Below are positions 36,356 through 52,470 of a stretch of DNA of 64,000 nucleotides, piece by piece. Position 1 is the stretch's first letter. Each line of letters starts with the position of its first letter. The position numbers were made by a program, and so were the translations under genes. This DNA comes from Caldicellulosiruptor acetigenus. Its GTDB lineage: Bacteria; Bacillota; Thermoanaerobacteria; Caldicellulosiruptorales; Caldicellulosiruptoraceae. A model generated the notes under the pieces. It ran no database searches. It saw only the letters and a list, made by a program, of their open reading frames with translations, and was not told the origin of the DNA. Where the stretch lies: positions 814,183 through 878,182 of the forward strand of contig NZ_CP113866.1 in the NCBI RefSeq assembly GCF_026914305.1, written 5' to 3'.

Positions 36356-36475
36356 ATGGAAGCAAAAAAGCCCAAGGTTTACAACTATAATAAACTACCA
36401 ACACTCAAACTCTTTGAAAAAACTTGGCACGCCCGGGGGGAATCGAACCCCCGACCACAGAAGTTCTGTGAATGA
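36356..36475 (+). CDS. Short open frame running into the left attachment repeat
   Basis: A 39-aa open frame starts at ATG 36356 and reads MEAKKPKVYNYNKLPTLKLF before it enters the tRNA-derived repeat at 36425. The YNYNKLPTLKLFEK segment faintly resembles the start of the FtsK/SpoIIIE core (YxLPxLxLL), so it may be a cut-off DNA translocase fragment. No good ribosome site is present. It may be chance. Confidence 0.25.
   Translation: MEAKKPKVYNYNKLPTLKLFEKTWHARGESNPRPQKFCE
36425..36460 (-). repeat. Left attachment repeat (tRNA-Arg 3' fragment)
   Basis: This is the T arm, acceptor 3' strand and CCA of tRNA-Arg, with one A/G difference (36442 against 52412) from the copy in the intact gene at 52395-52430. 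No tRNA 5' half adjoins it. It is followed by a perfect inverted repeat CACAGAA-g-TTCTGTG (36456-36470) that may be part of the recombinase core site. Confidence 0.85.
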
Positions 36476-36600: not shown

Positions 36601-36662
36601 GTGCATGGTGTTCTTTTCGAACTGGTAATGAATATTCATGCATATGAATTTGATGGCGAACA

Positions 36663-37855
36663 TTAACCTGGACTGCCTGTATCTTCTTTTGAATACAAGA
36701 AAGATTTAAACAAGCTATCAATCTTTTTGGCAACCGATTCTTTCATCTCGGTTAACACGTGGGAATAAATATTGAGAGTGGTTGATATATCTTTGTGTCC
36801 AAGTATTTCCTGGATGACTTTTGGTTGTTCATTGCTCTCAAGAAGTCTTGTGGCAAATGTGTGCCTTAAAGCATGAAAGTTGATGTCCAGTTCTGCTTTT
36901 TTAATGATTCGATAAAAAGTCCTTTGAAAATTTCTCGGGTCAATTGGAGTTCCTACTGCAGTACAAAATACATAATCGTTATCTATGTATCCAGCACCTG
37001 CTTGTTCTTTCTCTTTCTCTTGTGCTTCCTTGTGCTTTTTTAGTTCTTCCAAAGTTATTTCTGCCAAGGGTACAATTCTGATACTATTAGGTGTTTTCAC
37101 TTCGTTCACTATAAGAGATGTTGTTGTTTCTGTGCTACCATATGTTCTGGCTCGTAATATGGTTCGTTTGACTGTCAGGATTTTTTTCTCGAAGTCAATG
37201 TCACTCCACTTGAGCGCTAATATTTCACCCAGCCTTAATCCTGTAGTAAGTGCCAGAACGAACGCTGGTTTTAACCGTTCCACTTCCAGGGCTTCTAAAA
37301 ATCTTCTTTCTTCTTCTAAAGTAAAACTTTTATTGTTTCTTTCTTTTTTGACTTCGGCAGTGTCACTGCTTCGCTAACATTTCTTGGTAGCAAACCGCTC
37401 TTGACGGCTTGTTTTAAAGCTGAGTGCAGGATTGTATGAATATGTTTAATCTTGCTGGTTGATAAACCTTCTTCCTTCTTTTGATTGTATAATTGTTTAA
37501 GATGTTCAGGTCTGATATCTTTAAGTTTTAAATTACCTATGTGTGGCACGATGTGGACTCTAATTAATTGTTTCATAGCTTTCAAAAGTGGAGATTTTTA
37601 TTTGGTTTCTTTTATATGTCCATAGCCAAATTTTTAGCCATTCGCTCAAAGTAATTTTACTGCTGTCAACATCAAAACCCTGTTCAATCTCGTTTAAGGC
37701 TTTTCTTATTTTATCAGCCACTTCTTGCCTTGTTCTGCCATAAAAGAATTTCTTTTTTGATTTCCTTTTTCATCATAGCCAACAGTAATAAAGCCACACC
37801 ATCTGCCATCTTTTCTTTTGAAAATGCTGCCTTCACCTTTACCGCGCCTTCCCAC
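36663..37855 (-). pseudogene. Tyrosine integrase, frameshifted
   Basis: Reading the minus strand from GTG 37855 gives a phage-type integrase of about 395 aa once three frameshifts are joined (near 37750, 37577 and 37310). Parts seen: AP2-like N-terminus (VGRRGKGEGSIFKRKDGRW), core-binding domain (ITLSEWLKIWLWTYK, then HIVPHIGNLKLKDI), and catalytic domain with TTGLRLGEIL, LRHTFATR, LGHKDISTTLNIYSHV. All catalytic residues (R, H-x-x-R, H, Y) are in the last open segment (36663-37283). Frameshifts elsewhere make the protein non-functional. Confidence 0.85.
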
Positions 37856-37984: not shown

Positions 37985-38020
37985 AAGGCAGAGGACTGAT
38001 TTCCTCTGCCTTTTTTTATT
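37985..38020 (+). terminator. Strong terminator upstream of the Rep-like fragment
   Basis: A perfect AAGGCAGAGGA/TCCTCTGCCTT-type stem (loop CTGATT) is followed by seven Ts. No gene reads into it on the plus strand in the region kept, so it may be left from a lost gene. Confidence 0.8.
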
Positions 38021-38055
38021 TTGAACCAAATTTTTTTTTGAGGAGGGTTAAGGGA

Positions 38056-38304
38056 ATGGTAAAGAATTATTTGATTACATTAACTTTGAAGAACAAATCT
38101 TTAGATGAAGTAAAATCATACAAAAAGTTAGCAAAAAATTTTTTAAATTCACTTAGAAATTTTTGTAAAAAAGAGAAAGTAAATTATGCAGTATGTTTTT
38201 CTTTTTCAAAATCAAAGATTGAAAATGGGATTAGAAGAAATTCGAGACTCCATTTTCATCTAATTTTGACAACAAATAAAATAAACAAGATAAAAATTTT
38301 ATAA
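38056..38304 (+). CDS. Fragment of a possible HUH-type replication initiator
   Basis: This 82-aa frame starts at ATG 38056, with GGAGG 10 bases upstream. Near its end is RLHFHLILTTN, which fits the HUH metal motif (HxH flanked by hydrophobics) of rolling-circle Rep or relaxase proteins. The reading continues in another frame from about 38301 (WKYGFVHFKNV), the next conserved Rep-like segment, so there is a frameshift near 38300. No active-site tyrosine is seen in the remains. The identification is tentative. Confidence 0.5.
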   Translation: MVKNYLITLTLKNKSLDEVKSYKKLAKNFLNSLRNFCKKEKVNYAVCFSFSKSKIENGIRRNSRLHFHLILTTNKINKIKIL

Positions 38305-38366
38305 CAAGGTATTGGAAATATGGATTTGTACATTTTAAAAATGTATCCTATTGTTTATTTGAAGCT

Positions 38367-38642
38367 ATGCGATACACTATTGCCCAAGAAGAATGGGCTT
38401 TTATTCAGGGGAACGACTGCGCATACAAAATGGAAATATTAAGCATTATTGAGAATAATTATAATTCATCTGAAAAGGAGATTGCATCTGTTGTTGAAAC
38501 TCAAAAAGGTGAGAAACTTGAATTGAAATTTAATAATATTAGGGATACTGGTAATATTGATAATCCTGGAGTATTCTACGACGTAGTTATTGTGTATGGT
38601 ATTCTTGTGCCACATAGGAAGTGGTATTATGATACAAGTTGA
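38367..38642 (+). CDS. Hypothetical protein following the Rep-like fragment
   Basis: This is a 91-aa frame from ATG 38367 to TGA 38640-38642, without a good ribosome site. The same frame is open upstream to about 38301 and includes the WKYGFVHFKNV piece, so it may be the second half of a fused or frameshifted protein. The C-terminal part (ENNYNSSEKEIASVV..., ending VYGILVPHRKWYYDTS) resembles no family I recognise. It may be a chimeric remnant. Confidence 0.35.
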   Translation: MRYTIAQEEWAFIQGNDCAYKMEILSIIENNYNSSEKEIASVVETQKGEKLELKFNNIRDTGNIDNPGVFYDVVIVYGILVPHRKWYYDTS

Positions 38643-38771
38643 TTTGTTTTAGGGGATAATTAGGTGTTTTAGCTGGTTGTTAATCAAAATTGTGATTTAC
38701 AAAAAACAGGATTAGCTGATAAGAACAGCAGGCTTTTCATGTGTTCAGGATTGTGCTAAAATAAGAGTGAA

Positions 38772-38850
38772 AGCTTCAGCAGGAGGCTTTTCGTTATTGC
38801 TCTCGGGAAGGGAGAGGTTTTTCGTTACTGCCTGCTGAGGCTGGTTTTTT
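38772..38850 (+). ncRNA. Structured RNA-like element with internal 16-base repeats
   Basis: A 12-bp outer stem (AGCTTCAGCAGG at 38772-38783 with CCTGCTGAGGCT at 38831-38842, one G-U) encloses two copies of AGGYTTTTCGTTAYTG (38784-38799 and 38815-38830), which flank a small CTCTC/GAGAG hairpin. The outer stem is followed by GGTTTTTTAATTTT. A weak promoter (TTTTCA-17-TAAAAT, about 38733-38761) precedes it. It may be a small RNA, a terminator or a replication/recombination structure. I do not recognise a known family. Confidence 0.45.
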
Positions 38851-39060
38851 AATTTTCAATTGGAGCAGTATTTCAGTTGATTTGGTGGTTGAATTTTAGT
38901 TTTTGTTGGATGGCTTAAAAGATTTGTATCCGACTCATTGAAAAGGACTCTGTCAGTGCAGAAGGTACGATAGAGAGATTTTTGAGATACGTGACGCTTT
39001 TGGTTTTAAGGGGAAAACAGGGGGATGGAAAGTTTTTGCTAATTCGACATTAATGGTTAA

Positions 39061-39092
39061 GGGGCAGGGTTTAAAACCCTGTCTTTTGTTTT
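39061..39092 (+). terminator. Terminator-like hairpin
   Basis: The inverted repeat CAGGGTTTAAAACCCTG (39065-39081) is followed by TCTTTTGTTTT. Confidence 0.6.
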
Positions 39093-39112
39093 AAGATGTT
39101 CTTGTTTGAATT

Positions 39113-39256
39113 TTGGTTTTTGATTTATCTGATGTCCTTTCGAAACAGTTCAAACAACCAATGAAGAAAATAATTCAGGAAGCTATTGCGGAGTACGTGA
39201 GGAAGGGTTATACTTTCAGTGACTGTGAAAAGCTTTTGGCCTTTTTAAAAAAATAG
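39113..39256 (+). CDS. Small hypothetical protein
   Basis: A frame of 47 codons from TTG 39113 (or 31 from ATG 39161) encodes a helical, charged peptide: FDLSDVLSKQFKQPMKKII at the start and a KLLAFLKK end. There is no strong ribosome site. It might be the tail of a lost plasmid or phage gene. Nothing identifies a function. Confidence 0.3.
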   Translation: MVFDLSDVLSKQFKQPMKKIIQEAIAEYVRKGYTFSDCEKLLAFLKK

Positions 39257-39815
39257 TAAGTTGTGGCAGAAAAAATTGAAGAAAGGCAGCTGTGGGAAAC
39301 CACATTGCAGGATGGGATTGAAAAATGAATCCACTTTGGGCTATATGAGTAGACCGGGGCAAGGGCGTACTGTCAGAAGAATGTTAATCTGCCGTAAGAA
39401 ACATACATGTATACTCGAAATTAGCCATAGCCAACTAGCGTTCATTATTAGAAATGGTTAAATTCAATGGTGAAGAAACTTGCAAATGTGTGTGAGAAAG
39501 CTAAATCAAAAGCTCAAATCAAGCATGGAGTATATCGCAAAGCCGTTGATATACCTGGATTTGTGGGGTAACAGACAAACCTGCAAATGGCTTTTGAGCC
39601 GGGGTAGGGTGTGGGAAATACCAAAAGAGTAGGGATAGGTGCTGTAAACGATTACATTAGAATTGTAAAGCTTGAAAGTTGCTGGGCGAGCAAAAAGCCA
39701 ACCAAAAAGAGCCAACTCAAGACTTGCGCCGGTAGTTGAAAACCTCGAGAGCACTGGCTTTTAAACTATTGCAAAAGTCTGAAATTGGATGTATACTTAA
39801 ATCGGAGTGATAATT

Positions 39816-39995
39816 ATGGAAAATAGTATAATGAGAGAGATTTACAATATTCAGGAAAAATTTTATGAAGAAACAAAAGATATGACTCTAAAAGAGTTTT
39901 TAGAATATATTCACAAAAGAGCTGAGAAGGTAGTGAGGGAGATAAAAGGAGTGTCAAAGGAAGAAAAACAGGATGGGACTATAAGATACTGCTGA
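39816..39995 (+). CDS. Small helical protein, paralog A beside hicB
   Basis: This 59-aa protein starts at ATG 39816 with GGAGTGA upstream. It is clearly related to the 56-aa protein at 40620-40790: both begin MENS/METS, then have an IxEKxYEET-like segment and an EFLEYIHKRAEKVVRE/EFIEYIRRKANKVREE segment. The two flank the hicB/hicA locus. The function is unknown; a toxin-antitoxin accessory or antitoxin-like role is suggested only by position. Confidence 0.6.
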   Translation: MENSIMREIYNIQEKFYEETKDMTLKEFLEYIHKRAEKVVREIKGVSKEEKQDGTIRYC

Positions 39996-40068
39996 ACAAA
40001 AGTTATAATAAAAACAGTTAGAGAAACTGTATTCAAAACGTGTCTATAGAAATGTAAAAATAGAAACT

Positions 40069-40099
40069 ACCACAGCAAAAGCTGTGGTTTTTGTTTTTT
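40069..40099 (+). terminator. Terminator between paralog A and hicB
   Basis: ACCACAGC/GCTGTGGT with an AAAA loop is followed by TTTTGTTTTTTG. Confidence 0.82.
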
Positions 40100-40156
40100 G
40101 TGTGGTATAATAAAAGTGTAAGTGAGAAATTTTCAAGTGTGAAAGGTGATTTTGTT

Positions 40157-40357
40157 ATGTTGTTTACAGTAGTAGTAAGCAAAGAGGACAATTGGTATAT
40201 AGCTAAATGCATAGAAAACAATGTAGCTTCACAAGGAAAAACTATCGAAGAAGCAATAGCCAATTTAAAAGAAGCTCTTGAACTTTACTATGAAGGAGAA
40301 GAGATACAAAAACCACAGATGCCACCGCTAATAACTACAATAGAGGTGGCAGTATAA
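40157..40357 (+). CDS. hicB: HicB-family antitoxin-like protein
   Basis: This 66-aa protein starts at ATG 40157 with AAAGGTGAT 6 bases upstream. It carries the HicB fold start: MLFTVVVSKEDNWYIAKCIE, then GKTIEEAIANLKEALELY, the usual degenerate RNase-H-like strand-helix pattern. It has no C-terminal DNA-binding domain. hicA follows directly but is broken, so the antitoxin has no partner here. Confidence 0.88.
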   Translation: MLFTVVVSKEDNWYIAKCIENNVASQGKTIEEAIANLKEALELYYEGEEIQKPQMPPLITTIEVAV

Positions 40358-40581
40358 ATGTCACCAAAATATCCTGTACTGAAGCCCCAGGAGATAATAA
40401 GAGCGCTCAAAAAAGCTGGGTTCAAGGAAGTATCACAAAGAGGCAGTCATCTCAAGCTAAAGAGATAAAATCCAACAAGGATTGTTATTATTCCTATGCA
40501 TGAAGAAGTTGCAAGGGGACGCTAAAAAGTATTTTGGAGCAGGCAGGAATAAGTCTGGAAGAGTTTTTGAAACTGTTGTAG
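40358..40581 (+). pseudogene. hicA: HicA-type mRNA interferase, broken
   Basis: The ATG at 40358 abuts the hicB stop. The frame gives the HicA start (LKPQEIIRALKKAGFKEVSQRGSHLKL, including the conserved G-S-H with catalytic His), then an in-frame TAA after about 37 codons. NPTRIVIIPMHEEVARG continues in the same frame, and the last part (KSILEQAGISLEEFLKLL) needs a frameshift. So a nonsense change and an indel have broken it. Together they rebuild the normal HicA length of about 74 aa. Confidence 0.85.
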
Positions 40582-40619
40582 GAAGTTCTGACACAGCGCA
40601 AGAGGAGAAGAGATAGAGG

Positions 40620-40790
40620 ATGATGGAGACAAGTGCAAAGAAGGAGCTGCACAGGATAAGAGAGCGAATATATGAAGAGACGGAAAACATATCTCGGGAT
40701 GAATTCATAGAATACATTAGACGAAAAGCCAACAAAGTAAGAGAAGAGACGAAAAGGTTCAGAGAAAAAACTGTTAACGAAATTAACTGA
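40620..40790 (+). CDS. Small helical protein, paralog B after hicA
   Basis: This 56-aa protein (ATG 40620 or 40623; GGAGAAG upstream) is homologous to the 59-aa protein at 39816-39995 (shared YEET, EFxEYI and KANKV/RAEKV segments). It ends KTVNEIN. The hicBA pair lies between the two copies, so the unit looks like a duplication that brought or bracketed the toxin pair. The function is unknown. Confidence 0.55.
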   Translation: MMETSAKKELHRIRERIYEETENISRDEFIEYIRRKANKVREETKRFREKTVNEIN

Positions 40791-40824
40791 AGCACAAGTT
40801 AATGTCAAGAGCCCATCACGCCTC

Positions 40825-41015
40825 TTTGCTGATTTTTTGTTCTAAAGAGCCAGCAAATGCGGACCAGGGTGGGACGGAAAAATCAAAAACTACTGGCAGG
40901 AGAAGGTGTTTGCCAAAGCAGGTTAGCGTGAGGTTGTCCGGGCAGTTGCATACTACGATGGGTGCGTTTTAAAAATTTCAGAAAGAGGGCTTGACAGGGG
41001 GATTAAGGTGTGGTA
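40825..41015 (+). pseudogene. Unidentified coding remnant with one stop codon
   Basis: One frame is open from about 40853 except for a single TAG near 40925: it reads KCGPGWDGKIKNYWQEKVF, then after the stop REVVRAVAYYDGCVLKISERG, and ends at a TAG by 41015. The composition is protein-like. I do not recognise the family. Confidence 0.3.
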
Positions 41016-42084
41016 GATATATTAATAAGTCGTATTATGCCTAAAAGGTTGTTAATACAAAAAGTTCATTTTTATTCGGTATTTTCGTTTAAAATAGTAA
41101 AAAGCAAAGCCACAGGTTATCAAAGGCCTGTGGCTTTATTTTTTTGTGGGGAATAGGTCACTTTTTGCACGGTGTGAGGTATAAATATTTATCAGAGAAA
41201 TATAGAAACGATGTACGAGGGATGCGTCGTGCAGCCTCTACTCAAGTAAATAGCAAAACTATTGTTTCCAAAAATACTTTTGAGTGTATTGATGTTTTGT
41301 ATTTTGGCATTACATTTTCATGCATATACCGTGGTCGGTAGTACCAGCAATGATGTAAGTAGTTTTAAACGGAAAGTTATTTGAGTCGGTTTTTAATAAT
41401 ATATCCAGCGCGTTTGAGCAAGTATACGAATTAAACACATCAGTTCGCATTTTGCAATGGGTTATAGAGCAATGTAAAATAACAAAGATTTTTAAGACGT
41501 AATATAAGTTGTCCAATCTAATTCGAATGATTTCTTACCAAGAAGGATGGTAAAATTTTAAATACACAAAATTATTTACACACTCAAAGCTAAAGCTAAA
41601 GGGGTGGGCATTCAGAATACCCACCCCAACTCTTGACAAAGAGCCGCTTTTTTGTTATTATCAATACTTTTTCGGTTCTTTCCTACCCTAGTTGAAATTA
41701 AATAATAAACCCTCATTTCTTAACATTCCAAAACTACAGCGGCTGTACTACATATGATTTAATAGTCTTTTTCTTATACTCGAAAAATAAAATTTATTCA
41801 ACTGGCTTCGGGAAGAACCCATTTTATGATATCATTATGCAACAGACACAATTTTATTTTAACATCCGGTGCTGCAATAGCTCATATTAAAAAAGGACCG
41901 CACATTTATTCATTGGAGTACAATCTCATGCGAAGAAATGCTTGATGATACAAAGAAAGCGGCAATATTTGAAGCTACTTGAGTAGGTGTTAATCCTGAT
42001 TTTGGAGAAATCGTTCATATAAAAAATGTTTCATTGGCTTATCTTTTTTTAATAATTTTCAAATGTTCAGTTTATGCGATTATA
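41016..42084. other. Gene-free island stretch
   Basis: About 1.07 kb without a credible intact gene. It contains a strong hairpin terminator at 41106-41145 and a GGGGTGGG/CCCACCCC hairpin at 41601-41627 that has no T-run on the plus strand but TTTAGCTTT on the minus strand. The short frames near 41140-41340 and 41880-42050 have stops and no family resemblance that I can see. Confidence 0.5.
41106..41145 (+). terminator. Strong terminator
   Basis: AAAGCCACAGG/CCTGTGGCTTT is followed by ATTTTTTTG. It shares the CCACAG/CTGTGG stem core with the terminator at 40069-40099. Confidence 0.85.
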
Positions 42085-42114
42085 TTGTTAACAATATCAA
42101 TTGAGTGCTATAAT
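42085..42114 (+). promoter_or_regulatory. Promoter for the transglutaminase/epimerase operon
   Basis: TTGTTA at 42085-42090 and TATAAT at 42109-42114 have an 18-base spacer, leaving a 5' leader of about 135 bases. Confidence 0.5.
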
Positions 42115-42256
42115 TTAGATAACCTAAAGAATAACTATATTTATTAGATTAATGGGTAAAAGTTCAGAAAAAGTAAAAGATGATTTGTGAAAGTGACAAA
42201 CTTTAGAAAAATAAGCTATACCAATTTTATTCTAAAAACAACAGGATGGTGAAATT

Positions 42257-43570
42257 ATGGATTTTCTTATATGCAAGATACCAGAAGAGATTGAAAGAGA
42301 AGAAAAGCGTGGTAATTTCGGTCTGGCTCTAAAATTGATAGAAAAATGGTTAGCTGATGAAAGAATAACTGAGATACAAAGAAAGCGTTTAATGTATGAA
42401 AAAGATAGAATAAACAAACTGCTCGAAAGCTATCCTTTTGATGAAGAAAGTGCTTTAAAGCAGGCAATGGAGTTAATTGATTCTTTTACTTATAGTGAAT
42501 TCTACCAACTTTTGGGGGAAGGCTATATTGATTACATAGTAGTTGAAGGAAAGAAGAAATTTGAAGAGCATTTTGTTCAAAATATAGGTTTTACTGTTCC
42601 AGCATACAGAGAAAGGATCAAGAAAGATCCTGTTTCAGAGAAGGCAAGAGAATTGCTCAACAAGAGATTAGAACAACTGACAGAGGGTAATCCTGCCAAA
42701 AGATACCGAGTACGAGCAAAGATAACTGTTACCATTAAAGACGATGCAGATAATTTTCGTGTTTGGCTTCCTTTTCCGAAAGAAGAGTTTCAGGTTTGCG
42801 ATGTAAAACTTGTTTCAGCAAGCCACAGAGACTATTTTCTTGCAGACAACCGAGCTGCTCAGAGAACTATTTACTTTGAAGGCAAAGAGAAAGAGTACTT
42901 CGTTGAGTTCGAATACACTATAAATGAGTGGATAAACAAAGTTGACCCGGAAAAGGTTGAAGAAAATGATTTAACTGAATTTCTTTGTGAGGAACCACCT
43001 CATGTGTTGTTCACACCATACCTGAAGCTTTTAACTAACGAAGTAGTTGCTGGCGAGGAGAATCCTTATTTAAAAGCGAAGAAAATTTACGATTGGGTTA
43101 CAACACATGTTAGGTACTCTTATGTTCGACCATATGCCACTTACGAGAACATACCACAATATGTTGCAGAGAACTTGAAAGGAGATTGTGGCTTTCAGGC
43201 TCTCCTTTTTATAACTATGTGCCGGATTGCTGGAATACCTGCTCGATGGCAGTCTGGGTGGTATGCGAATCCTTTGATGGCTTCTCCACACGACTGGGCT
43301 TTGTTCTACGTCAAACCTTATGGTTGGCTGCCGGCAGATCTTTCATTTGGTGGGGCAAGACGGGAGAATGAAAAACTTCGCAGTTTCTATTTTGGTAACT
43401 TAGATGGTTTTAGGATGGTCGCAAACTCAGACTTTATGAAAGAATTCGTACCCAAACCAAATTTCCTGCGATTTGATCCCACAGATAATCAACTTGGTGA
43501 AGCCGAATCCTCATTTGGGAAAGTTAAAACTAAAAGCAGGATTGAGATAATCTCTTTTGAAGAAATCTGA
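42257..43570 (+). CDS. Transglutaminase-like (cysteine peptidase fold) protein
   Basis: This 437-aa cytosolic protein (no signal peptide) has a helical N-terminal region (1-150), a beta-rich middle (150-240) and a transglutaminase-core domain (about 275-430). The catalytic triad is visible: Cys in KGDCGFQALLF (about 311), His in ASPHDWALFYV (about 345) and Asp in LPADLSFGG (about 361). In bacteria such proteins are usually cysteine peptidases. It is followed after 20 bases by a dipeptide epimerase, so it may release the dipeptide that the epimerase acts on. Confidence 0.88.
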   Translation: MDFLICKIPEEIEREEKRGNFGLALKLIEKWLADERITEIQRKRLMYEKDRINKLLESYPFDEESALKQAMELIDSFTYSEFYQLLGEGYIDYIVVEGKKKFEEHFVQNIGFTVPAYRERIKKDPVSEKARELLNKRLEQLTEGNPAKRYRVRAKITVTIKDDADNFRVWLPFPKEEFQVCDVKLVSASHRDYFLADNRAAQRTIYFEGKEKEYFVEFEYTINEWINKVDPEKVEENDLTEFLCEEPPHVLFTPYLKLLTNEVVAGEENPYLKAKKIYDWVTTHVRYSYVRPYATYENIPQYVAENLKGDCGFQALLFITMCRIAGIPARWQSGWYANPLMASPHDWALFYVKPYGWLPADLSFGGARRENEKLRSFYFGNLDGFRMVANSDFMKEFVPKPNFLRFDPTDNQLGEAESSFGKVKTKSRIEIISFEEI

Positions 43571-43590
43571 GGAGAGGGTGATATATTTCA

Positions 43591-44622
43591 ATGAGTAAGA
43601 TAGTAAATGTCAAATTCAATGTCAAATACTACGAGTATGATAAGCCTTTTCACATCACTGGAAGTATATCTTCTGAGACAAAAAATGTGGAAGTAGAAGT
43701 CACACTTGAAAGTGGTGCCAAAGGTTACGGTGAAGCTGCACCTTCATTTAGAGTCAATGGGGAAAAGGTTGAAATGATCTCTGCACTCGAGCCTTTTGTG
43801 AGAGATTCGCTTGTTGGACTTGATGTGCGACAGTATCGAAAGATCTTTGAAATAACTGATAAGCTATTTGCTGTTCCCAGTTTAAAGGCTGCTATTCAAT
43901 ATGCTGTTTTGGATGCATTGAGTGAAGAGACGAATATTCATGTCTACCAACTTCTTGGCGGAGCTTTGAAAGAGATTGAAACGGATAAAACAGTAGGGAT
44001 AGACACAATTGAAAATAGAGTTAGCGAAGCAAAAAAAATTTTTGACTCGGGCTTTAGGGTCATAAAGATAAAGGTTGGAGAAAATTTGAAAGAAGATATA
44101 GAAGCAATGCTTGAGATTTACAAGGTGACCAAAGGTGCAAAATACATTGTGGATGCGAATATGGGATACACACCAAAGCAAGCAGTGGAGTTTGCCCAGC
44201 AGATTTACAAAGCAGGAATAGACATAGCTGTGTATGAACAACCAGTTATTTCAAGTGATATCGATGGGCTCAGATTTGTCAGATTTCATGTTCCTTTTCC
44301 TGTTGCTGCCGATGAGTCTGCTAAGACAAAATTTGATGTCATGAGATTGATACGTGAAGAAGCTGTAGATTATGTGAATATAAAGCTGATGAAATCCGGA
44401 ATAAGCGATGCTCTTTCTATTGTAGAGCTTGCAAAGAGTGCTAACCTGAGGTTAATGATAGGATGTATGTCTGAATCAAGCGTCGGGATTAATCAGAGTG
44501 TTCACTTTGCCCTTGGAACTGGAGCATTTGACTTCCATGATCTTGACAGTAATCTAATGTTAAAAGAACCAAAGTTTAGAGGGAAATTCATTCAAAATGG
44601 AGCGAAGATGATAGGATATTAA
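43591..44622 (+). CDS. Dipeptide epimerase (enolase superfamily, L-Ala-D/L-Glu type)
   Basis: This 343-aa protein belongs to the muconate-lactonising subgroup of the enolase superfamily. The catalytic Lys is in KIKVGEN, metal ligands in VDANMGY, YEQP and AADESA, and the second base Lys in IKLMKSG. The DLDSNLML segment matches the DxD motif that marks Ala-Glu dipeptide epimerases. It would convert L-Ala-D-Glu from peptidoglycan to L-Ala-L-Glu for recycling. It is co-oriented with the transglutaminase-like gene, with GGAGAGGGTG upstream. Confidence 0.88.
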   Translation: MSKIVNVKFNVKYYEYDKPFHITGSISSETKNVEVEVTLESGAKGYGEAAPSFRVNGEKVEMISALEPFVRDSLVGLDVRQYRKIFEITDKLFAVPSLKAAIQYAVLDALSEETNIHVYQLLGGALKEIETDKTVGIDTIENRVSEAKKIFDSGFRVIKIKVGENLKEDIEAMLEIYKVTKGAKYIVDANMGYTPKQAVEFAQQIYKAGIDIAVYEQPVISSDIDGLRFVRFHVPFPVAADESAKTKFDVMRLIREEAVDYVNIKLMKSGISDALSIVELAKSANLRLMIGCMSESSVGINQSVHFALGTGAFDFHDLDSNLMLKEPKFRGKFIQNGAKMIGY

Positions 44623-44737
44623 GTGAAGTTTAGTAACAACAAAATTTGCAAAAAGATGCTACTTTTAATATTCCGATTTGGTTTAAAATTTTTATTTTTG
44701 TTGTAAAATTAAGTGCAATAGGGTAAGAAATATTGAA

Positions 44738-44809
44738 GCCATAGCTTCAAACTGTGTATGGTATTAGTTGAGAATACAAACACATACAAAGAAGGTTTGA
44801 AGCTATGGC
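44738..44809 (+). repeat. Inverted repeat before the IS30-type transposase
   Basis: GCCATAGCTTCAAAC (44738-44752) and GTTTGAAGCTATGGC (44795-44809) are perfect inverse complements. The right arm covers the transposase start codon (44805). It may be a hairpin that limits translation or part of the element end. Confidence 0.65.
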
Positions 44810-45528
44810 CTATGATAATAATACCAAAAAGAGAAGGAAATTTAAACACACAAGTAGAGCCGAAAGAGGAGCGATAGAAAAACTGATAGAGCTTGGTCTG
44901 ACCATAAGAGAAATAGCAAGAAGATTAGGCAGAAATGCAAGTACTATTTCACAGCAGGATAAAGCAAGGAACAACAACTCAAACGAAGAGTGATTTGAGT
45001 ACATTTGAAAAGTATTTAGCACCAACAGGACAAGCTGTGTATAACAAAAACAGAGCAAGGTACGGTAGAAAAAGTAAACTTTTAGAAGTGAAAGAATTTT
45101 TGAAGCTTGCAGAAAAGCTGAAAGATAAGTGGTCAGTCGATGCGGTGGTTGGATACTGCAGACAGGAACTTGGATTTAGCAAAGAAAGGATGGTATGTAC
45201 AAAGACATTATACAACTGGATAGGAAAAGGGTTTTTGAAAGTAAAGAACATAGATTTGCCAATTAGAGTTAGATTAAAGCCAAGGAAAGTAAGCAGAAAA
45301 GTAGCAAAGAATAAGCCAAAAGGCAAGAGTATAGAAGAAAGACCGTAGAAAGTAAATAACAGCGAAGAATTTGGACATTGGAAGATAGGTACTTTCGAAG
45401 CTTAAGCGTTCTTCAGCCAGTGTATTGGTTACTCTAACAGAGAGGTTAACAAGATTTGGTCTGATTTTTGTAATACTGAAAAAAATACCTGAGAATATTT
45501 ATCAGCAAGTATTTCATCAGGAGTTGCA
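44805..45528 (+). pseudogene. IS30-family transposase, broken
   Basis: The N-terminal segment (TSRAERGAIEKLIELGLTIREIARRLGRNASTIS) is the helix-turn-helix of IS30-type transposases. A frameshift near 44955 moves into the frame with KSKLLEVKEF and YNWIGKG; a stop at 45346-45348 breaks IEERP, but EEFGHWKIGTF continues, and a further piece (VLVTLTERLTRFGLIFV, with KKIPENIYQ) is out of frame again. The middle containing the first catalytic Asp region is shortened. No intact right-end repeat is visible. Confidence 0.8.
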
Positions 45529-45667
45529 GCTTTAATGAAAATATTGGGTGATATTCTTACTACTACATCTCTGTACTACTGCATGTTTACAAACTTACAT
45601 TGGAGTTTCAGGCTTTTTTCCAATTCCTTAATTCTAACTATGATGCAAATTTGACAAAACACATCAG

Positions 45668-46036
45668 ATGACTTTTTTTGAGGACGTTAGAATGGAAATA
45701 TTAAACCAGTTCGTAGAATACAACAAGATTCCTCGATTTATGTTCTGGGGGTATGGAAAGGGTACAGATGGAGTGAATTATGCAGAACCCGAGAAAGCTT
45801 TTGTGGATTGGTTGTACGTTCGTGGGCTGCGTCAGAAGTGGCCTTTTGAGAGGATTTGCTCTATGATGGAAGATATGTATCTAACTGACGAAGATTTCAG
45901 CTTGGACAAGGTGAGGGAATACATTAAAGAGATTGAGAACAAAGATTTAAGCAGCAGACTTTTAAAGCTGTTCGAAGATGCACTTAAGGATGTGTTTGAG
46001 AAGAACAAAAATAACCCATTCAGCAAGATTTTGTAG
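45668..46036 (+). CDS. C-terminal fragment resembling AbiEi-type antitoxin
   Basis: This 122-aa frame contains FMFWGYGKGTDGVNYAEPEKAFVDWLY, which resembles the segment F-x-G-x(n)-ATPEKALLDWLY of AbiEi-type regulators (type IV antitoxins). The N-terminal winged-helix half is absent, and the ATG at 45668 has no ribosome site. It is probably the truncated 3' part of an antitoxin gene. The cognate nucleotidyltransferase toxin is not nearby. Confidence 0.45.
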   Translation: MTFFEDVRMEILNQFVEYNKIPRFMFWGYGKGTDGVNYAEPEKAFVDWLYVRGLRQKWPFERICSMMEDMYLTDEDFSLDKVREYIKEIENKDLSSRLLKLFEDALKDVFEKNKNNPFSKIL

Positions 46037-46313
46037 TGGTAAGAAGCATGGTTGTGCCAAAGTTTTACAAGAAATTGGCTATTTTCATGGCTGAGATTGT
46101 TCTTGCAGTGCTTTGTTTTCTTGTTATAATGATAGTTAATTGTGGACTACCATCTACCTACAAAGTTAAACTGCCCTTATTCTCACAGGGTGGTTTACAC
46201 ACCCACTACTGAGTATCTGCTCTACAGTAGACTCATCAGGTTTTAGAGTTTATTGGCTTCAACCCAGCATAGTTATTAATCCTTCAGCGTTCAATGAATA
46301 ATGTACCTGCTCA
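46037..46313. other. Gap before vapBC with one small open frame
   Basis: No convincing gene is present. A 54-codon frame (46048-46212) is listed separately. The rest, including the stretch CCCACTACTGAGTATCTGC near 46202, shows nothing I recognise. Confidence 0.5.
46048..46212 (+). CDS. Possible small membrane protein
   Basis: A 54-aa frame from ATG 46048 contains one hydrophobic segment (IVLAVLCFLVIMIV). There is only a weak ribosome site. The position between an antitoxin fragment and vapBC makes it a candidate small toxin or just chance. Confidence 0.3.
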   Translation: MVVPKFYKKLAIFMAEIVLAVLCFLVIMIVNCGLPSTYKVKLPLFSQGGLHTHY

Positions 46314-46342
46314 TTGAAATTTTAAACTTCATGGATTATAAT
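46314..46342 (+). promoter_or_regulatory. Promoter for vapBC
   Basis: TTGAAA at 46314-46319 and TATAAT at 46337-46342 have a 17-base spacer and lie 34 bases before the antitoxin start. Confidence 0.7.
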
Positions 46343-46375
46343 AAACTCAGAACAATTGGTAGAGAGGTGGTTTAG

Positions 46376-46642
46376 ATGATACAGGCAACGTCAAAGATTA
46401 CTGGAAGGGGTCAAGTACAACTGCCAGCTGAGATAAGGAAAGTTATTGGTGGGGAGATAGGGGACACTGTACTTTTCACGATGCAGGACGACGGCAAAGT
46501 TGTAATTGAAGTGATAAAGAAGCGAAAACTATCAGAGCTTGGCGGTTCTCTGAAGTCATCAGTTGCGTTCACGGATTTGGAACATGAAGCAAATAGCACA
46601 AAAGAAATCTGGGTAAACAAGAGAGTGAAGGGGACACAGTAA
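46376..46642 (+). CDS. vapB: AbrB-type antitoxin (VapB-like)
   Basis: This 88-aa protein has the SpoVT/AbrB swapped-hairpin DNA-binding domain (SKITGRGQVQLPAEIRKVIG, then GDTVLFTMQDDG). The C-terminal tail would wrap the toxin. AGAGAGGTGG precedes the ATG. Its stop overlaps the first base of the toxin start (46642), so the pair is translationally coupled and should be autoregulated. Confidence 0.9.
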   Translation: MIQATSKITGRGQVQLPAEIRKVIGGEIGDTVLFTMQDDGKVVIEVIKKRKLSELGGSLKSSVAFTDLEHEANSTKEIWVNKRVKGTQ

Positions 46643-47052
46643 TGGAAAAGGTTTGGATTGATGCAAATGTTATTTTGAGATATCTTTTGCAAGACCACCA
46701 GGAGTTTTTCCAGAAAGCTCAGAAGATTATGCTCGAAGCGGAGCAGGGGAAGTTAAAACTGCTTGTTGTCCCAATCACGATTGCAGAGGTTGTATGGACT
46801 CTTGAGTTGTTTTATAAGATACCAAGGAAGGAGATAGCTGATGTTCTAAGTGCTTTCATATGCTCTGATGGTATTGAAGCAGAGGAAGCTGATGTTGTTC
46901 TTTTTGCACTCAAAAGCTACAAGGAAAGCAATGTTGATTTCATTGATGCATATCTTTCTCATCACATGGCAAAGTTGGGGAACAACAAGATCTTCACTTT
47001 TGATAAGAAACATTTTTCACGACTTGATGTAGAAATTTTGAGTACAGATTAA
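46642..47052 (+). CDS. vapC: PIN-domain toxin (VapC-like ribonuclease)
   Basis: This 136-aa PIN protein has the acidic active site: Asp7 in VWIDANVILRYLL, a Glu in ITIAEVVWTLE (about 49), Asp in VDFIDAYLSHH (about 99) and Asp in IFTFDKKHF (about 117). All residues expected of an active VapC-type RNase are present. It forms an intact pair with the AbrB-type gene immediately upstream, the only complete toxin-antitoxin system in the island. Confidence 0.9.
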   Translation: MEKVWIDANVILRYLLQDHQEFFQKAQKIMLEAEQGKLKLLVVPITIAEVVWTLELFYKIPRKEIADVLSAFICSDGIEAEEADVVLFALKSYKESNVDFIDAYLSHHMAKLGNNKIFTFDKKHFSRLDVEILSTD

Positions 47053-47063
47053 GAATAGTGAAA

Positions 47064-47388
47064 ATGGTTCCCATGGAACCGACTCCAGCACCCTTAAATG
47101 AACTCGATGATTTCTTTGGAGTAAGCATAGATTATCTGCTGTACAGGACTGATTGTGCGTGTCTCAGAAAAGCAAGATACAAAAAACAGTCAACTGCAAA
47201 CTCCAACAGATGCAAACAAAGAAACTGCCACTGACGATATAAAAGAGTTATTGCTTCTGGCTCAAAATCTGCAGGAGGAAGATTTGAAACTTTTAAAACA
47301 AATGGCAAAAAGGCTTGGGAGGCAATCTGCAATTTTCTATACCCAAGAATGCTGCCATTTAAGTCAAAAAAACAATTTGAAATTTTAG
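47064..47388 (+). pseudogene. XRE-family regulator, decayed
   Basis: The first frame reads ELDDFFGVSIDYLLYRTD, matching the last helix of an XRE helix-turn-helix domain, and a second frame from about 47155 reads VSEKQDTKNSQ, then LLLLAQNLQEEDLKLLKQMAKRLG, the usual C-terminal helix pair. The HTH N-terminus is missing, and a frameshift near 47150 splits the rest. It lies just upstream of hamAB. Confidence 0.6.
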
Positions 47389-47650
47389 GTTGCAGGTAAG
47401 GAAAGGAGTTTGTAGGATGTTAAACACAACTGCAAAAGATGAGGAGTAGAAATTTCTTAAATGCAATTGTGTTATAATAAAAAATTCCTTATAAACTTTG
47501 GAGATATCAAAATATTTAGGCTTACCAGAAGATATGGTATAATAAAGTCGAAAAACTTGAGTGGAAGAACGAAAACACATAAAATTGGGATATTATCTGC
47601 ATTGGGGTTACAAATGAGTTAGGCGTAAGTACAAATTGGAGATGGTGATT
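47389..47650. other. Upstream region of hamAB
   Basis: No gene is apparent. Two candidate -10 boxes TATAAT (47473-47478 and 47539-47544, the latter TGGTATAAT-like) could serve hamA, but -35 boxes are poor. Either may be the promoter. Confidence 0.4.
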
Positions 47651-48451
47651 ATGTCATCATTATCTTTAAAAATAGTATATGGGAATACTAATAGAAAAAC
47701 GGCATATGAAGGAATTGTTTTGCAAAATGGTTTCAACGAGTACTTATCTAAACGAGTAAAGAAAAGATTTTATGATATAGATGGTACTATGTTACTCATT
47801 AATGAGTTTGAGAATATAGCCTCAACAGGTTTTGAAAAATCTTTACTCGTTAATATATTTTCAATTTCACCACCTGCAGAAGACTGGAGAATTGGAGAAG
47901 CTTTAGCTGAATGTTATTTGGAAGATTTTGAGGGTACAAGATTTTATTACCCGCCTTTTAGAGATGCAAGGAATCCTAAAGCAAATCTTCAAGGAGCAGA
48001 TTTAGTTGGTTTTGTAGATATTGACGAAGAAAATACTATATTCTTATTTGGAGAAGTAAAAACATCTGAAGATAAAAATTCTCCGCCTCAAGTGATGTAT
48101 GGGAGATCAGGTATGATAGATCAACTTCGGAGTATACAAGGCGATCTAAACTTACAGAAATCACTAATTTCATGGCTTGGATTTAAGGTACAACCTTTGT
48201 TGGAAGAGGATCCATTTAAAAAAGATTATCTCAAAGCTTTAAAAACATACTTAAAGGAAGAAGCAGAGTACAAGTATTTTCTTTTTGGTGTATTAATTCG
48301 AGATACTGAACCAAAAAGTACAGACTTGAAATCGAGGTACGAATCCTTGAAAAACAACCTATCTAAGGGAGCACGATTAAAATTGATTGCCTTATATATT
48401 CCAATATCAATCAAAAATATGAAAAATTATATTGTTGATGAAGGTGGATAA
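47651..48451 (+). CDS. hamA: Hachiman defence protein HamA (DUF1837 nuclease-like)
   Basis: This 266-aa protein starts at ATG 47651, with GGAGATGGTGAT upstream. It has the layout of HamA/DUF1837: EALAECYLEDFEG, then LQGADLVGFVDID (about 115) and FLFGEVKTS (about 133-138). The D...ExK spacing fits a PD-(D/E)xK nuclease active site. In Hachiman, HamA forms a complex with the HamB helicase and is known to degrade DNA. HamB starts one base after its stop. The identification is from family memory and gene pairing. Confidence 0.8.
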   Translation: MSSLSLKIVYGNTNRKTAYEGIVLQNGFNEYLSKRVKKRFYDIDGTMLLINEFENIASTGFEKSLLVNIFSISPPAEDWRIGEALAECYLEDFEGTRFYYPPFRDARNPKANLQGADLVGFVDIDEENTIFLFGEVKTSEDKNSPPQVMYGRSGMIDQLRSIQGDLNLQKSLISWLGFKVQPLLEEDPFKKDYLKALKTYLKEEAEYKYFLFGVLIRDTEPKSTDLKSRYESLKNNLSKGARLKLIALYIPISIKNMKNYIVDEGG

Positions 48452-48452
48452 A

Positions 48453-51400
48453 ATGAATGAGATTGCTCACTGGATAATAAGTGAACTTCCAGAGGACATT
48501 CGAAGAAAAGCAGATGAAATAATTAACAAGAGAAAAATTGAAAATAAGTTATTTACTAAATCTACTTTGGTCCATGAAGAAAAAGAGTTACTTGAAAAAG
48601 TGTTGGAAATATACGAATTGGCGATAATAGATTTATGGGACAAAGAAGAAAAGAAAAATGAGTTTTCATTTTTAAATAAAAAATGCTTTGACATAATTCA
48701 AGTATTTCCTTTACCTCAAGATGATATTCCCAAAATTAAACATGTTTTGAAGTTGATAGGTTATTCATATTTAGGTGAGAAATGGGAAGATGGCAAAAGA
48801 TTTTTAATAGAAGAAAAGAATGCATGGTCAGTTAGTATTGATGATAAAACCACGTGGGATGAAAGGCTATTTAAGAAAACGTATTTAGCGATATTATATC
48901 TTGTTAAGAAAAACTCTTGGGAAGACCTCAGAAATGCAATAGATCTAATTAACAGTTTGCGAGATGAGCAAAAAGACTATGAAGAAAGATATTTGGAGTC
49001 TATAGATATAGAATTTAAAAAAGGTGCTGCTCTAGAACTAGCTTCATTCTATCACTTTGCTAAATCTATAGAAATATTGGGAGAATTTATGTTGGAGGGT
49101 GAACCTTCAAGTGATAAAGTTATAAGCGAATTAGAGTATCATTTAAACAAAGGAGTTTATTTTTGCGACTTTTCGGGAAATTTTGAATTTTCTCTTATTC
49201 TTCGACTTATGTTAGCAATGTTTAAAAAGATGGTATTCAATTCTATATGGCGTGTTTCAGAAAAAATTAATTCTAAAATAACTAGTTTTGTGAAAACTAT
49301 AACTAAAGCATCAAAGCCAGTATATGAACTGTTATATCCTCAAAGGGCTGCTATATTGGAAATGGGATTGTTGGATCCGGCCTCTCGTGGAATTGTAGTT
49401 AATCTACCGACATCAAGTGGAAAAACTTTAATCGCAGAGTTTAAGATTTTACAAGCTCTAAATCAGTTTGAAAATGGTTGGGTTGCTTATGCTGTTCCTA
49501 CTAGAGCACTGGTAAATCAAATAACCAATAGATTAATAAAGGATTTGGGGCATGAACCATTAAACCTAAAAGTAGAAAAGATGTCAGGGGCATTAGAAGT
49601 TGATTTTTTTGAGGAAAAACTAATTGAAGAGAAAGCTTTTGATATTCTAATTACCACTTATGAAAAATTAAATTTACTGATAAGACAAGGAATTGAAGAA
49701 AGATTAGGTCGTAAGTTGGTATTATTAATTGTTGACGAAGCACATAATATAGAAAGCCCAGACAGAGGATTAAACATAGAAATGCTCATATCTATAGTGA
49801 AGAGTGACTGCAAGTATGCAAATTTCTTGCTCTTAACTCCTTTTATTCCTAATTCTCGGGAGGTTTCTAAATGGATAAGTCCAGATAATCCGAAGTCCAT
49901 TGAAGTTCAATTACAATGGTGGAAACCTAATGATCAGATCGTAGGAGTTTATTACGCAGAGGGAGAAAAGCGGAAATGGAAAACTTATTTTGAGCCATTA
50001 ATTACAACACATTCTACAATCTTTTTCTCTGATAAAGTACAAATTGGCAGTTACAATGATCTTTTCAATGTTTCGCGTTCGAAACTTAATAATAAATCTC
50101 TTTTGACATCTATTGTTGCTAAACAGTTAGAAGATGTTGGATCTTTATTAATAGTTGCTAGAACAATAAATGAGACATGGGAGATTGCAGATCATCTTTA
50201 TAGTTATTTTGATAATGTAGAGGATGAAGATATTCTATTGGTCCAGAGATTTGTTGCCGCAGAACTGGGGGAGAATTTTCCATTAGTCAAATATTTATCA
50301 AAAGGAATAGGTATTCACCACGCAGGTTTACCTGATGAAGTAAGATATCTAATGGAATGGTTAATGGAAGAAAATAAACTGCGTGTTTTAGTTGCAACTA
50401 CTACTATAGCCCAGGGTATAAATTTCCCAGTTTCTGCAGTCTTAATGGCTTCATATAGCTATCCATTTGGAGAAATGCCTGTTAGGGACTTCTGGAACAT
50501 TGTAGGTAGAGCAGGAAGAATAGATCAAAAATCTCTTGGTATTGTAGGAATTGCTGTTAAAAATGAGAATGATAAACGTAAGATTATGGATTATGTACGT
50601 AAGCAAACGGGAGATCTTATTTCTATACTTGTAAAAATGGTTGATGAATTAGAAAATCTAGGACAAGAACTTGGAATGGAGTTAATTATTCGTTATCCAG
50701 AATGGTCAGCTTTTCTTCAATATATATCTCACTTGTATAAACAATATAATAATGTTTCTGAATTAATTACTAGACTTGAAATGGAGCTCAATAGAACTTA
50801 TGGCTATATAATTTTAAATCAGAGGAAAAAAGAAGTCTTGAAGAATGCTGTAAAACAGTATGTTGATAAATTAAGCGGTAAAGAATACTTGGTAAATTTA
50901 GCTGATCAAACAGGTTTCTCTCCTGATTCCATAGAAAGAGCAATATACAAAATAAGAGAGCTAAAGTTAAAACAATCTGATTGGTATAGCAGTAAAATGT
51001 TTAATAATGAAACAGGAATATTAAAAAAACTAATTGGAGTTATGCTCTCTGTTCCTGAAGTTAAAAAAAGTTTAGAAATTGATATACCAGGAGAAACAAA
51101 AACTTACTCTAAATTATCTCACTTGATTATAGATTGGGTGTCTGGAAAAGAGTTTACTGAAATAGCCAAAAATATATGGGGTAGCGACGATCCAAGAAAA
51201 ATTTCTGATTGCGTAAAAGCCATTTACCAAAAGGTTGTAAATGGTGCTACATGGGGATTGGCAGCTTTTTTGAGTATGCCTACATCTGGAATTAATTTTT
51301 CGCAACTTACAGAAGACGAAATAAGGAATCTGAAAAATATTCCTGCTATGGTATATTATGGTGTGAATACTGAAGAAGGTATTGTAATGAGAATAAATAA

Positions 51401-51593
51401 TGTTCCAAGATCTATTGCAAATAAACTTGGAGAAATATACAAAATGAAAAACGAAGATATATCTCCAAGATCTGCTTATGAGTGGTTAAAAAATATATCA
51501 ATTAGTATTTGGGATGAAAGCGTACCTTCAAATAAAAGTATCTCTGGTGCCGACTATAAAAGAATATGGGAAAAACTATCGGGAGAAAGATAA
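48453..51593 (+). CDS. hamB: Hachiman defence helicase HamB (Ski2-like)
   Basis: This protein of about 1046 aa starts at ATG 48453, with GAAGGTGG 6 bases upstream. An N-terminal region (1-300) is followed by a superfamily 2 helicase core: motif I PTSSGKT (about 318), DEAH box IVDEAHNIE (about 426), motif V ATTTIAQGINFPV and motif VI NIVGRAGRIDQ (about 680). Long loops (GIGIHHAGLPDEVRYLMEWL) are as in Ski2-type helicases. The C-terminal 300 residues are unassigned. All helicase motifs are intact, so the system may be active. Codon use is more AT-rich (many TTA, ATA) than chromosomal neighbours, which suggests transfer. Confidence 0.82.
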   Translation: MNEIAHWIISELPEDIRRKADEIINKRKIENKLFTKSTLVHEEKELLEKVLEIYELAIIDLWDKEEKKNEFSFLNKKCFDIIQVFPLPQDDIPKIKHVLKLIGYSYLGEKWEDGKRFLIEEKNAWSVSIDDKTTWDERLFKKTYLAILYLVKKNSWEDLRNAIDLINSLRDEQKDYEERYLESIDIEFKKGAALELASFYHFAKSIEILGEFMLEGEPSSDKVISELEYHLNKGVYFCDFSGNFEFSLILRLMLAMFKKMVFNSIWRVSEKINSKITSFVKTITKASKPVYELLYPQRAAILEMGLLDPASRGIVVNLPTSSGKTLIAEFKILQALNQFENGWVAYAVPTRALVNQITNRLIKDLGHEPLNLKVEKMSGALEVDFFEEKLIEEKAFDILITTYEKLNLLIRQGIEERLGRKLVLLIVDEAHNIESPDRGLNIEMLISIVKSDCKYANFLLLTPFIPNSREVSKWISPDNPKSIEVQLQWWKPNDQIVGVYYAEGEKRKWKTYFEPLITTHSTIFFSDKVQIGSYNDLFNVSRSKLNNKSLLTSIVAKQLEDVGSLLIVARTINETWEIADHLYSYFDNVEDEDILLVQRFVAAELGENFPLVKYLSKGIGIHHAGLPDEVRYLMEWLMEENKLRVLVATTTIAQGINFPVSAVLMASYSYPFGEMPVRDFWNIVGRAGRIDQKSLGIVGIAVKNENDKRKIMDYVRKQTGDLISILVKMVDELENLGQELGMELIIRYPEWSAFLQYISHLYKQYNNVSELITRLEMELNRTYGYIILNQRKKEVLKNAVKQYVDKLSGKEYLVNLADQTGFSPDSIERAIYKIRELKLKQSDWYSSKMFNNETGILKKLIGVMLSVPEVKKSLEIDIPGETKTYSKLSHLIIDWVSGKEFTEIAKNIWGSDDPRKISDCVKAIYQKVVNGATWGLAAFLSMPTSGINFSQLTEDEIRNLKNIPAMVYYGVNTEEGIVMRINNVPRSIANKLGEIYKMKNEDISPRSAYEWLKNISISIWDESVPSNKSISGADYKRIWEKLSGER

Positions 51594-51899
51594 ATGATAG
51601 TCTCCTTTGACCTAATGACAAGCAGACAGTTAAGCTTTACTTTATTCAAATTTGTTAAACTCCTCGTGCCATTGACCTTTAAATGTTGTATAATAAACTT
51701 ACAATTGTTAGCACCAATAGCATTAAAATGCATCTACAAAATGTAAAAATAAAATTCGAACATGTTCCAAAACAGCCCTGGGAGTCGAATTTCTCAGGGC
51801 TTTTTGATTTTCAGCTGATAGTTTCTGAGCGCAGGAATCTGGTTTTCCAATGCTCGGAACAGGTAACGATAAAGAAAGGACAAAAGAAAAGTACAAGCA
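51594..51899. other. Downstream of hamB
   Basis: No gene is seen on the plus strand. It contains the terminator at 51772-51808 and AT-rich sequence with a TATAAT at about 51689 lacking a matching -35. The minus strand may carry the most decayed end of the recombinase remnant. Confidence 0.4.
51772..51808 (+). terminator. Terminator downstream of hamB
   Basis: AGCCCTG (51774-51780) pairs with CAGGGCT (51795-51801) and is followed by TTTTTGATTTT. Confidence 0.72.
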
Positions 51900-52225
51900 T
51901 CTCATACTAGTGTTGGCTACCAAAATTGTCCCACCCTGATGTAAAGGCTTCTCGCCTGTGCATCTACGAAAAAGTTGAATCCAAAGCAGACACAGGACAA
52001 ACTTTAAAACCCTTGTGTTATTTACATTTTGCCATAGTAGGCGAACCTGAAAAGAGCTTTTCGGCAGGGTAAAAAGACAGCGCAACGGTAAAGGTCAAAA
52101 AAGTGTGTTACATGGTATTCATAGTCTCTAAGTGTTAATTCACTTCTCCCTTCAGCCCGTTTGTAAAACAGGAATTGCTGTAAAGCTTTTCGCCAATCCA
52201 TTTTGATAACGCTTCTTCTGGGCAT
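51900..52225 (-). pseudogene. Second tyrosine recombinase remnant (XerD-like)
   Basis: From ATG 52225 (GAGAGGTGG upstream) the minus strand reads MPRRSVIKMDWRKALQQFL and then FYKRAEGRSELTLRDYEYHVTHFF, which matches the N-terminal core-binding domain of XerD-like recombinases. The frame ends at 52022. A further piece in another frame (VSALDSTFS, then a stop, then REAFTSGWDN) resembles the box I region (LDTGxRxxEAF). Most of the catalytic domain is gone. It is unlike the first integrase in sequence. Confidence 0.5.
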
Positions 52226-52300
52226 AATAAAACCACCTCTCGCATTTTTCTTGCGATTGGTGGTCATGACTTGGCGTTTTGTAATCCAGTGGGGATATAC

Positions 52301-52338
52301 AAGTCCTATGGGACACATTTACCACAGGACTTGGGGTG
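52301..52338 (-). other. Stem-loop near the tRNA-Arg end
   Basis: CAAGTCCTATGG pairs with CCACAGGACTTG with one mismatch. On the plus strand it is followed by GGGTGTTTTT; on the minus strand there is no T-run. It lies about 57 bases beyond the tRNA-Arg 3' end and could be a transcript end or recombination structure. Confidence 0.4.
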
Positions 52339-52394
52339 TTTTTAAACCCATTTCCAAGTTTTTCTACTGCACTTAGTCCTTGATATATCTCATC

Positions 52395-52430
52395 TGGCAC
52401 GCCCGGGGGGAGTCGAACCCCCGACCACAG
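52395..52430 (-). repeat. Right attachment repeat (3' part of intact tRNA-Arg)
   Basis: These 36 bases are the T arm, acceptor 3' strand and CCA of the intact tRNA and match 36425-36460 with one mismatch. It marks the right boundary of the island and restores the tRNA gene. Confidence 0.85.
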
Positions 52431-52470
52431 GATTCGAAGTCCTACGCTCTATCCTCTGAGCTACGGGCGC
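52395..52470 (-). tRNA. tRNA-Arg (TCG), integration target
   Basis: This 76-base gene on the minus strand has the acceptor GCGCCCG/CGGGCGT with a G-U first pair, D arm GTAGCTCAGAGGATAGAGC, anticodon loop CTTCGAA with anticodon TCG, T loop TTCGACT and encoded CCA. Its 3' half is duplicated at 36425-36460. Confidence 0.95.

Follow-up and report, generated by a model that had tools for sequence, protein, structure and literature searches.

Do the two genes that stand open near the right end of a decayed tRNA-Arg island in Caldicellulosiruptor acetigenus form an anti-phage system, and if so, of which kind? They lie at 47651-51593 of the stretch of 64,000 nucleotides analysed here (contig NZ_CP113866.1, positions 814,183 to 878,182; called the window below), and the initial annotation had taken them for Hachiman (HamA/HamB). 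Our answer is that they do, as a system of Hachiman type that belongs to the PDC-M23 lineage; we infer its function, and put the probability of this reading at about 0.78. Judged by profile, the pair falls short of canonical Hachiman and fits best into the PADLOC candidate family PDC-M23, while comparison of predicted folds and a rooted helicase tree indicate that it is a deep lineage of the HamAB kind. The genes and the signals around them are as follows.

47651..48451, + strand: HamA-type nuclease gene (PDC-M23A), ATG 47651 to TAA 48451, 266 amino acids (aa)
48453..51593, + strand: HamB-type Ski2-like helicase gene (PDC-M23B), 1046 aa from ATG 48453
48441..48447, + strand: AAGGTGG, Shine-Dalgarno-like, for the helicase gene, within the end of the nuclease gene (sequence read)
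51774..51801, + strand: terminator-like stem AGCCCTG...CAGGGCT and then a T-run, about 180 bp 3' of the pair (weak, such sites being no commoner than by chance)

A GGAG at 47638-47641 precedes the nuclease ATG. The helicase most likely starts at ATG 48453, with in-frame TTG and ATG starts upstream, from 48432, also possible. Because this ATG comes one base past the nuclease stop and AAGGTGG lies inside the nuclease gene, the two genes are taken to be translationally coupled. Both frames are open, with no stop or frameshift across 3.9 kb and all motifs retained. Thus the description of the locus as two coupled open genes held. The best PADLOC model covers the full length of each protein, PDC-M23A for the nuclease (294 bits) and PDC-M23B for the helicase (1315 bits, HamB1 models coming next with 227 bits). 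The match is far beyond chance, because the E-values are 1.9e-88 and 0 and the same two-gene order recurs across several phyla and viral contigs.

Folds and ancestry of the two proteins

What kind of nuclease does the first gene encode? A search of the protein against NCBIfam profiles matched no model, and solved structures searched by sequence, with the single protein and with an 8-member profile, gave nothing useful; fold comparison succeeded instead. An AlphaFold2 model of the nuclease was built with 7 sequences as input (mean pLDDT 83). In a Foldseek search of the PDB, only HamA chains fell below an E-value of 0.001, the best at 2.2e-6. VIA-align gave a Z of 15.7 across 238 residues to E. 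coli HamA (8vx9_A), 13.7 to 8vxy_A and 12.4 to 8zue_A, another E. coli Hachiman structure. The best fold outside Hachiman was PaqCI, a type IIS enzyme, at Z 6.6; according to the Hachiman authors, the fold nearest to HamA is that of a type IIS enzyme from Paucibacter aquatile (PMC12278908). The motifs GADLVG and FGEVK supply the predicted active site and correspond to D119, E138 and K140 of ECOR31 HamA by motif, with which the sequence alignment agrees. The prediction for the first protein is therefore a HamA fold whose D/E-x-K residues fall where the catalytic residues of E. coli HamA are. The GEVK motif and a Ski2-like helicase with all its motifs, both called initially, were confirmed in the sequence at these places.

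47999, 48053 and 48059, + strand: D117, E135 and K137, predicted catalytic residues of the nuclease (motif)
49407, 49734, 50397 and 50505, + strand: helicase motifs PTSSGKT (Walker A), DEAH, TTTIAQG and GRAGR, respectively (sequence read)

The helicase model (mean pLDDT 75) has two RecA domains between an N-terminal part (residues 21-293) and a C-terminal part that are both all-helical. Its three best Foldseek matches are HamB chains (4.5e-22), compared with 9.9e-17 for Hel308. The HamB chains 8vxa and 8vx9 cover helicase residues 7-1053 with 934-968 residues aligned, whereas for almost every other chain listed the alignment begins only at about residue 265. Note that the N-terminal bundle is common to HamB orthologues, is missing from related Ski2 helicases, and forms part of the HamA-binding surface (PMC12278908). 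The second protein is thus predicted to have HamB architecture, with an N-terminal helical bundle, two RecA domains carrying all motifs and a helical C-terminal region. The likeness to ECOR31 HamAB (PDB 8VX9, 8VXA, 8VXY; PMC12278908) therefore extends over the nuclease-helicase gene pair, the HamA fold with its D...ExK residues, and the bundle, RecA1/RecA2 and helical C-terminal region of HamB. There are differences as well. Identity in the structural alignments is only 12-17%, and the match to E. coli HamB stops near residue 1088 of its 1174, while the window helicase stays helical to its end. The C-terminal OB-like barrel of ECOR31 HamB, expected beyond about 1088, is unmatched; this barrel is not known to be universal in HamB.

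AbpAB of E. coli, which also joins a nuclease to a Ski2-like helicase, was considered as well. It has been proposed to be a variant of Hachiman with an extra nuclease at the N-terminus, and activation by DNA damage is reported; in AbpA the HamA domain is catalytically dead and a further, Cap4-like nuclease domain is present (PMC12278908). The window nuclease, unlike AbpA, is a single domain of 266 aa, lacking the extra N-terminal nuclease and with its catalytic residues present, and this candidate was dropped.

Several results weigh against a Hachiman-type reading. The nuclease scores only 20.2 bits (E 6e-4) against the Pfam HamA model (PF08878), under the curated cut-off of 25, and a close-family nuclease profile retrieves no solved HamA from the PDB by sequence. 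For the helicase, the fold Z values to HamB (22.2) and Hel308 (22.1) are tied, and in single-sequence scores of the core against the PDB HamB is no closer than Hel308 or ASCC3. In the literature searched, measured activity was found for no PDC-M23 pair, and PDC-M23 is named in no paper found. PMC12988326 describes such families as putative defence candidates (PDCs) obtained by 'guilt by embedding' and mostly unvalidated.

How then can HamB be told from Hel308? Because single-sequence scores fail to split HamB from Hel308 and ASCC3, a rooted tree was used together with the full-length fold comparison, and the distinction depends on the N-terminal bundle, on the tree and on the partner gene. The tree of helicase cores comprised PF08878-positive and PDC-M23 pairs of the same phylum, two further pairs (L004 and L005) and the ECOR31 HamB core, with Hel308, ASCC3 and SLH1 as root. 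All HamB and PDC-M23B cores form one clade against Hel308, ASCC3 and SLH1 (support 100/99), and PDC-M23B is monophyletic (100/100). ECOR31 HamB groups with L083, a PADLOC HamB1 pair (93/97), which itself matches the HamB and HamA of 8vx9 directly. On this tree PDC-M23B may be nested within HamB or may be its sister (approximately unbiased test, p 0.29). Intermediate pairs exist that score with PDC-M23 and HamA/HamB models alike; one example is L072 of genome G075, whose nuclease is above the PF08878 cut-off and also matches PDC-M23A.

The name Hachiman was right in kind, by fold and by tree, and inexact by profile. A DUF1837-like nuclease had been called, and here the HamA fold stood while the Pfam score stayed below threshold. 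The profile search proposed along with that call put the nuclease under the Pfam cut-off and the helicase far closer to PDC-M23B than to HamB1. As the initial annotation had named placement of the first gene outside DUF1837 as grounds for refutation, a nuclease below the HamA cut-off with PDC-M23 as best match means that, by its own rule, this is not canonical Hachiman as far as profiles go.

Relatives and their neighbouring genes

How widely is this pair spread? None of 11 congeners searched has the nuclease gene or the pair, and of 398 genomes sampled in the phylum, 10 have PDC-M23A. Only two more pairs came out of a large-sample search covering two other phyla. Among viral contigs, a profile search with the helicase alignment found seven relatives and one with the nuclease alignment no confirmed relative; plasmids gave only two relatives, both distant (26%). 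Close relatives share gene order and length with the window pair, and the order is the same in the relatives examined, which come from several phyla and viral contigs. No sequence difference was found that separates the window pair from PDC-M23. The closest relative, L004, shares the gene arrangement; it is a contig of 8.1 kb from a metagenome-assembled genome assigned to Desulfobacterales. DNA similarity to it is limited to 47633-51598, i.e. exactly the two genes, with DNA identities of 79% for the nuclease gene and 81% for the helicase gene and protein identities of 75% and 83%. L004 may owe its phylum assignment to wrong binning; whether it does has no bearing on horizontal transfer into the window genome.

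The neighbours of these relatives are informative. In L088 the order is hsdM, PDC-M23A, PDC-M23B, hsdR, the four genes abutting or overlapping by a few bases, and in L089 it is hsdM, hsdS, PDC-M23A, PDC-M23B, hsdR. At L101/L066 and L102/L067 hsdM-, hsdS- and hsdR-like genes surround the pair. Elsewhere the pair comes after BrxL (L090), adjoins Cmr1 (L068), or precedes ThsA-like and DUF262-like genes (L004). Judged from these gene orders, the association of PDC-M23 relatives with defence genes is strong. Embedding in another defence system is, according to PMC12988326, the criterion by which PDCs were discovered; it is how PDCs in general were found and is not required of each copy. The window pair differs from several relatives in this respect, for it stands alone while they sit within operons for type I restriction.

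Two loci deserve separate mention. At L069:1814-5030 (genome G020) the PDC-M23B gene is split into two frames of 257 and 813 aa, and the adjacent nuclease gene is intact. L100:5754-14623 contains a PDC-M23 pair whose nuclease gene has a 415-aa frame; the genes around it are large, including a 943-aa frame, and a gene for an OLD-like ATPase lies upstream.

Might the pair then be an accessory to type I restriction-modification that works with HsdMSR or backs it up, detecting DNA ends or failed restriction? If so, the window copy would be an orphan, which may act differently or not at all. Pairs placed between hsdM/hsdS and hsdR in L088 and L089, and among hsd-like genes in the other two loci, speak for it. 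However, reading of the stretch beside the pair found no type I genes in L004, L068, L070 and L090, where in three cases the other defence genes named above take their place, and the unit common to the window and L004 is the pair alone. We consider this explanation unlikely. The hsd neighbours may mean that the pair acts together with type I restriction or that it just travels with it.

The tRNA-Arg island

Where does the window pair itself reside? The island runs from a degraded copy of the tRNA-Arg end to the tRNA-Arg gene, beyond a left flank formed by a beta-CASP metallo-beta-lactamase gene whose end is at 36281.

36425..36460, + strand: 36-bp direct repeat of the tRNA-Arg 3' end with one mismatch; degraded far attachment site, left boundary
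36663..37283, - strand: C-terminal catalytic fragment of a tyrosine integrase adjoining the far repeat (PF00589, 114 bits)
44805..45348, + strand: broken IS30-family transposase, truncated, in two overlapping frames
45668-46036: AbiEi-like fragment, a frame of 122 aa similar to the AbiEi antitoxin over the latter's C-terminal half (E 6e-9)
46376..47052, + strand: AbrB/MazE-like antitoxin and PIN-domain toxin gene pair
52022..52318, - strand: N-terminal remnant of the tRNA-Arg-adjacent integrase (309-341 aa in congeners)
52395..52470, - strand: tRNA-Arg(TCG), integration target, right boundary
L029:2477-11762, L030:7131-17287 and L034:8518-16667: apparently intact integrative elements of congeners

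The nearest defence-like genes to the pair are the AbiEi-like fragment, downstream of which no AbiEii gene was recognised, and the AbrB/MazE-PIN pair, which is probably a toxin-antitoxin module; congener G006 shares the latter pair (within 46269-47336) at 89% DNA identity. No hsd, BREX or CRISPR genes were recognised among the island genes searched. The hotspot (36281-52395 of the window) was compared with the same place in 11 congeners (L028-L038), and the cargo differs between the species examined; between the same flanks its size ranges from some 0.7 kb in G011 up to some 13 kb in G010. G010, G004 and G007 have an apparently intact integrative element of 8-10 kb at tRNA-Arg, with 48-bp tRNA-end repeats, an integrase of 309-341 aa beside the tRNA, a DnaG-zinc-finger/Toprim/DnaB fusion protein and small genes. 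Other candidate defence genes are found at the congener hotspot too, namely PDC-M24B (G001 and G006) and PDC-M04A (G009). Because of the integrase remnants, the degraded repeat, the IS30 debris and the varied cargo in congeners, the island is decayed and the site is a recurrent hotspot. The decayed island described initially was thus recovered; it shows two integrase remnants, a degraded tRNA-end repeat, a broken IS30 transposase and an AbiEi-like fragment.

Has the pair decayed with its surroundings? One explanation would be that it is a dead remnant whose frames are still intact and whose function was lost only recently. Remnants do abound nearby, and the helicase frame of L069 (G020) is split in two. 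Against this, the frames stay open over 3.9 kb with the motifs kept, and the ratio of nonsynonymous to synonymous rates (dN/dS, NG86) relative to L004 is 0.17 for the nuclease and 0.09 for the helicase, with changes mostly at third positions; on this sequence comparison both genes are under purifying selection. The ratio averages both branches, so that it leaves room for a very recent loss, and we regard such a loss as very improbable. It had also been proposed that the system was kept open while its carrier decayed. The low dN/dS is compatible with this. However, the G+C content at third codon positions of the pair, 0.23, is the lowest among window open reading frames of at least 250 aa (mean 0.34, standard deviation 0.04), and therefore the pair may equally have arrived later than the surrounding debris.

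Hardly credible is the idea of a Hel308-like DNA repair helicase that has a nuclease of restriction-enzyme fold beside it by chance: the core does score nearly equally with Hel308, ASCC3 and Brr2, but the two-gene order is kept in the relatives examined, the pair is missing from 11 of 11 congeners, the core tree joins the helicase to HamB, HamB matches cover the N-terminal bundle, and the nuclease matches HamA far above other folds, and on tree, bundle and HamA-fold partner this reading was dropped.

Mechanism and meaning

How would a Hachiman-type pair act here? In E. coli the HamAB complex scans DNA and takes 3' ends or damaged DNA, upon which ATP hydrolysis activates a nuclease that destroys all the cell's DNA (PMC12278908). 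By analogy with the ECOR31 system, the two proteins would bind each other 1:1, the helicase gripping the nuclease with its N-terminal bundle and keeping it in check. The helicase would patrol DNA and engage 3' ends or damaged DNA arising in infection, its ATP hydrolysis would activate the nuclease, and the nuclease would cut phage and host DNA, so that the infected cell would die without phage yield. The parts needed for such a mechanism all appear to be present, and the mechanism is probably of this already known kind. The pair itself was probably acquired horizontally into the tRNA-Arg hotspot. Another scenario, possible but doubtful, would make PDC-M23 a branch of Hachiman with a function of its own, which specialised in partnering type I restriction, is set off by cut ends or by failed restriction, and has repeatedly gone solo, as it would have here.

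The host is probably a thermophile, as initially proposed: amino acid composition (IVYWREL, 14,638 residues from the window) gives an estimated growth temperature of about 65 C. As material for structural work, the window HamAB is probably heat-stable. What is more, the embedding of relatives in type I operons suggests cooperation between restriction and the sensing of genome integrity. The tie between PDC-M23 and Hachiman, which is drawn from predicted structure, appears to be new as far as the literature searched shows. With it, PDC-M23, a database candidate, would gain a concrete identity and a testable mechanism, and Hachiman would be widened by a deep lineage which the standard HamA profile misses.

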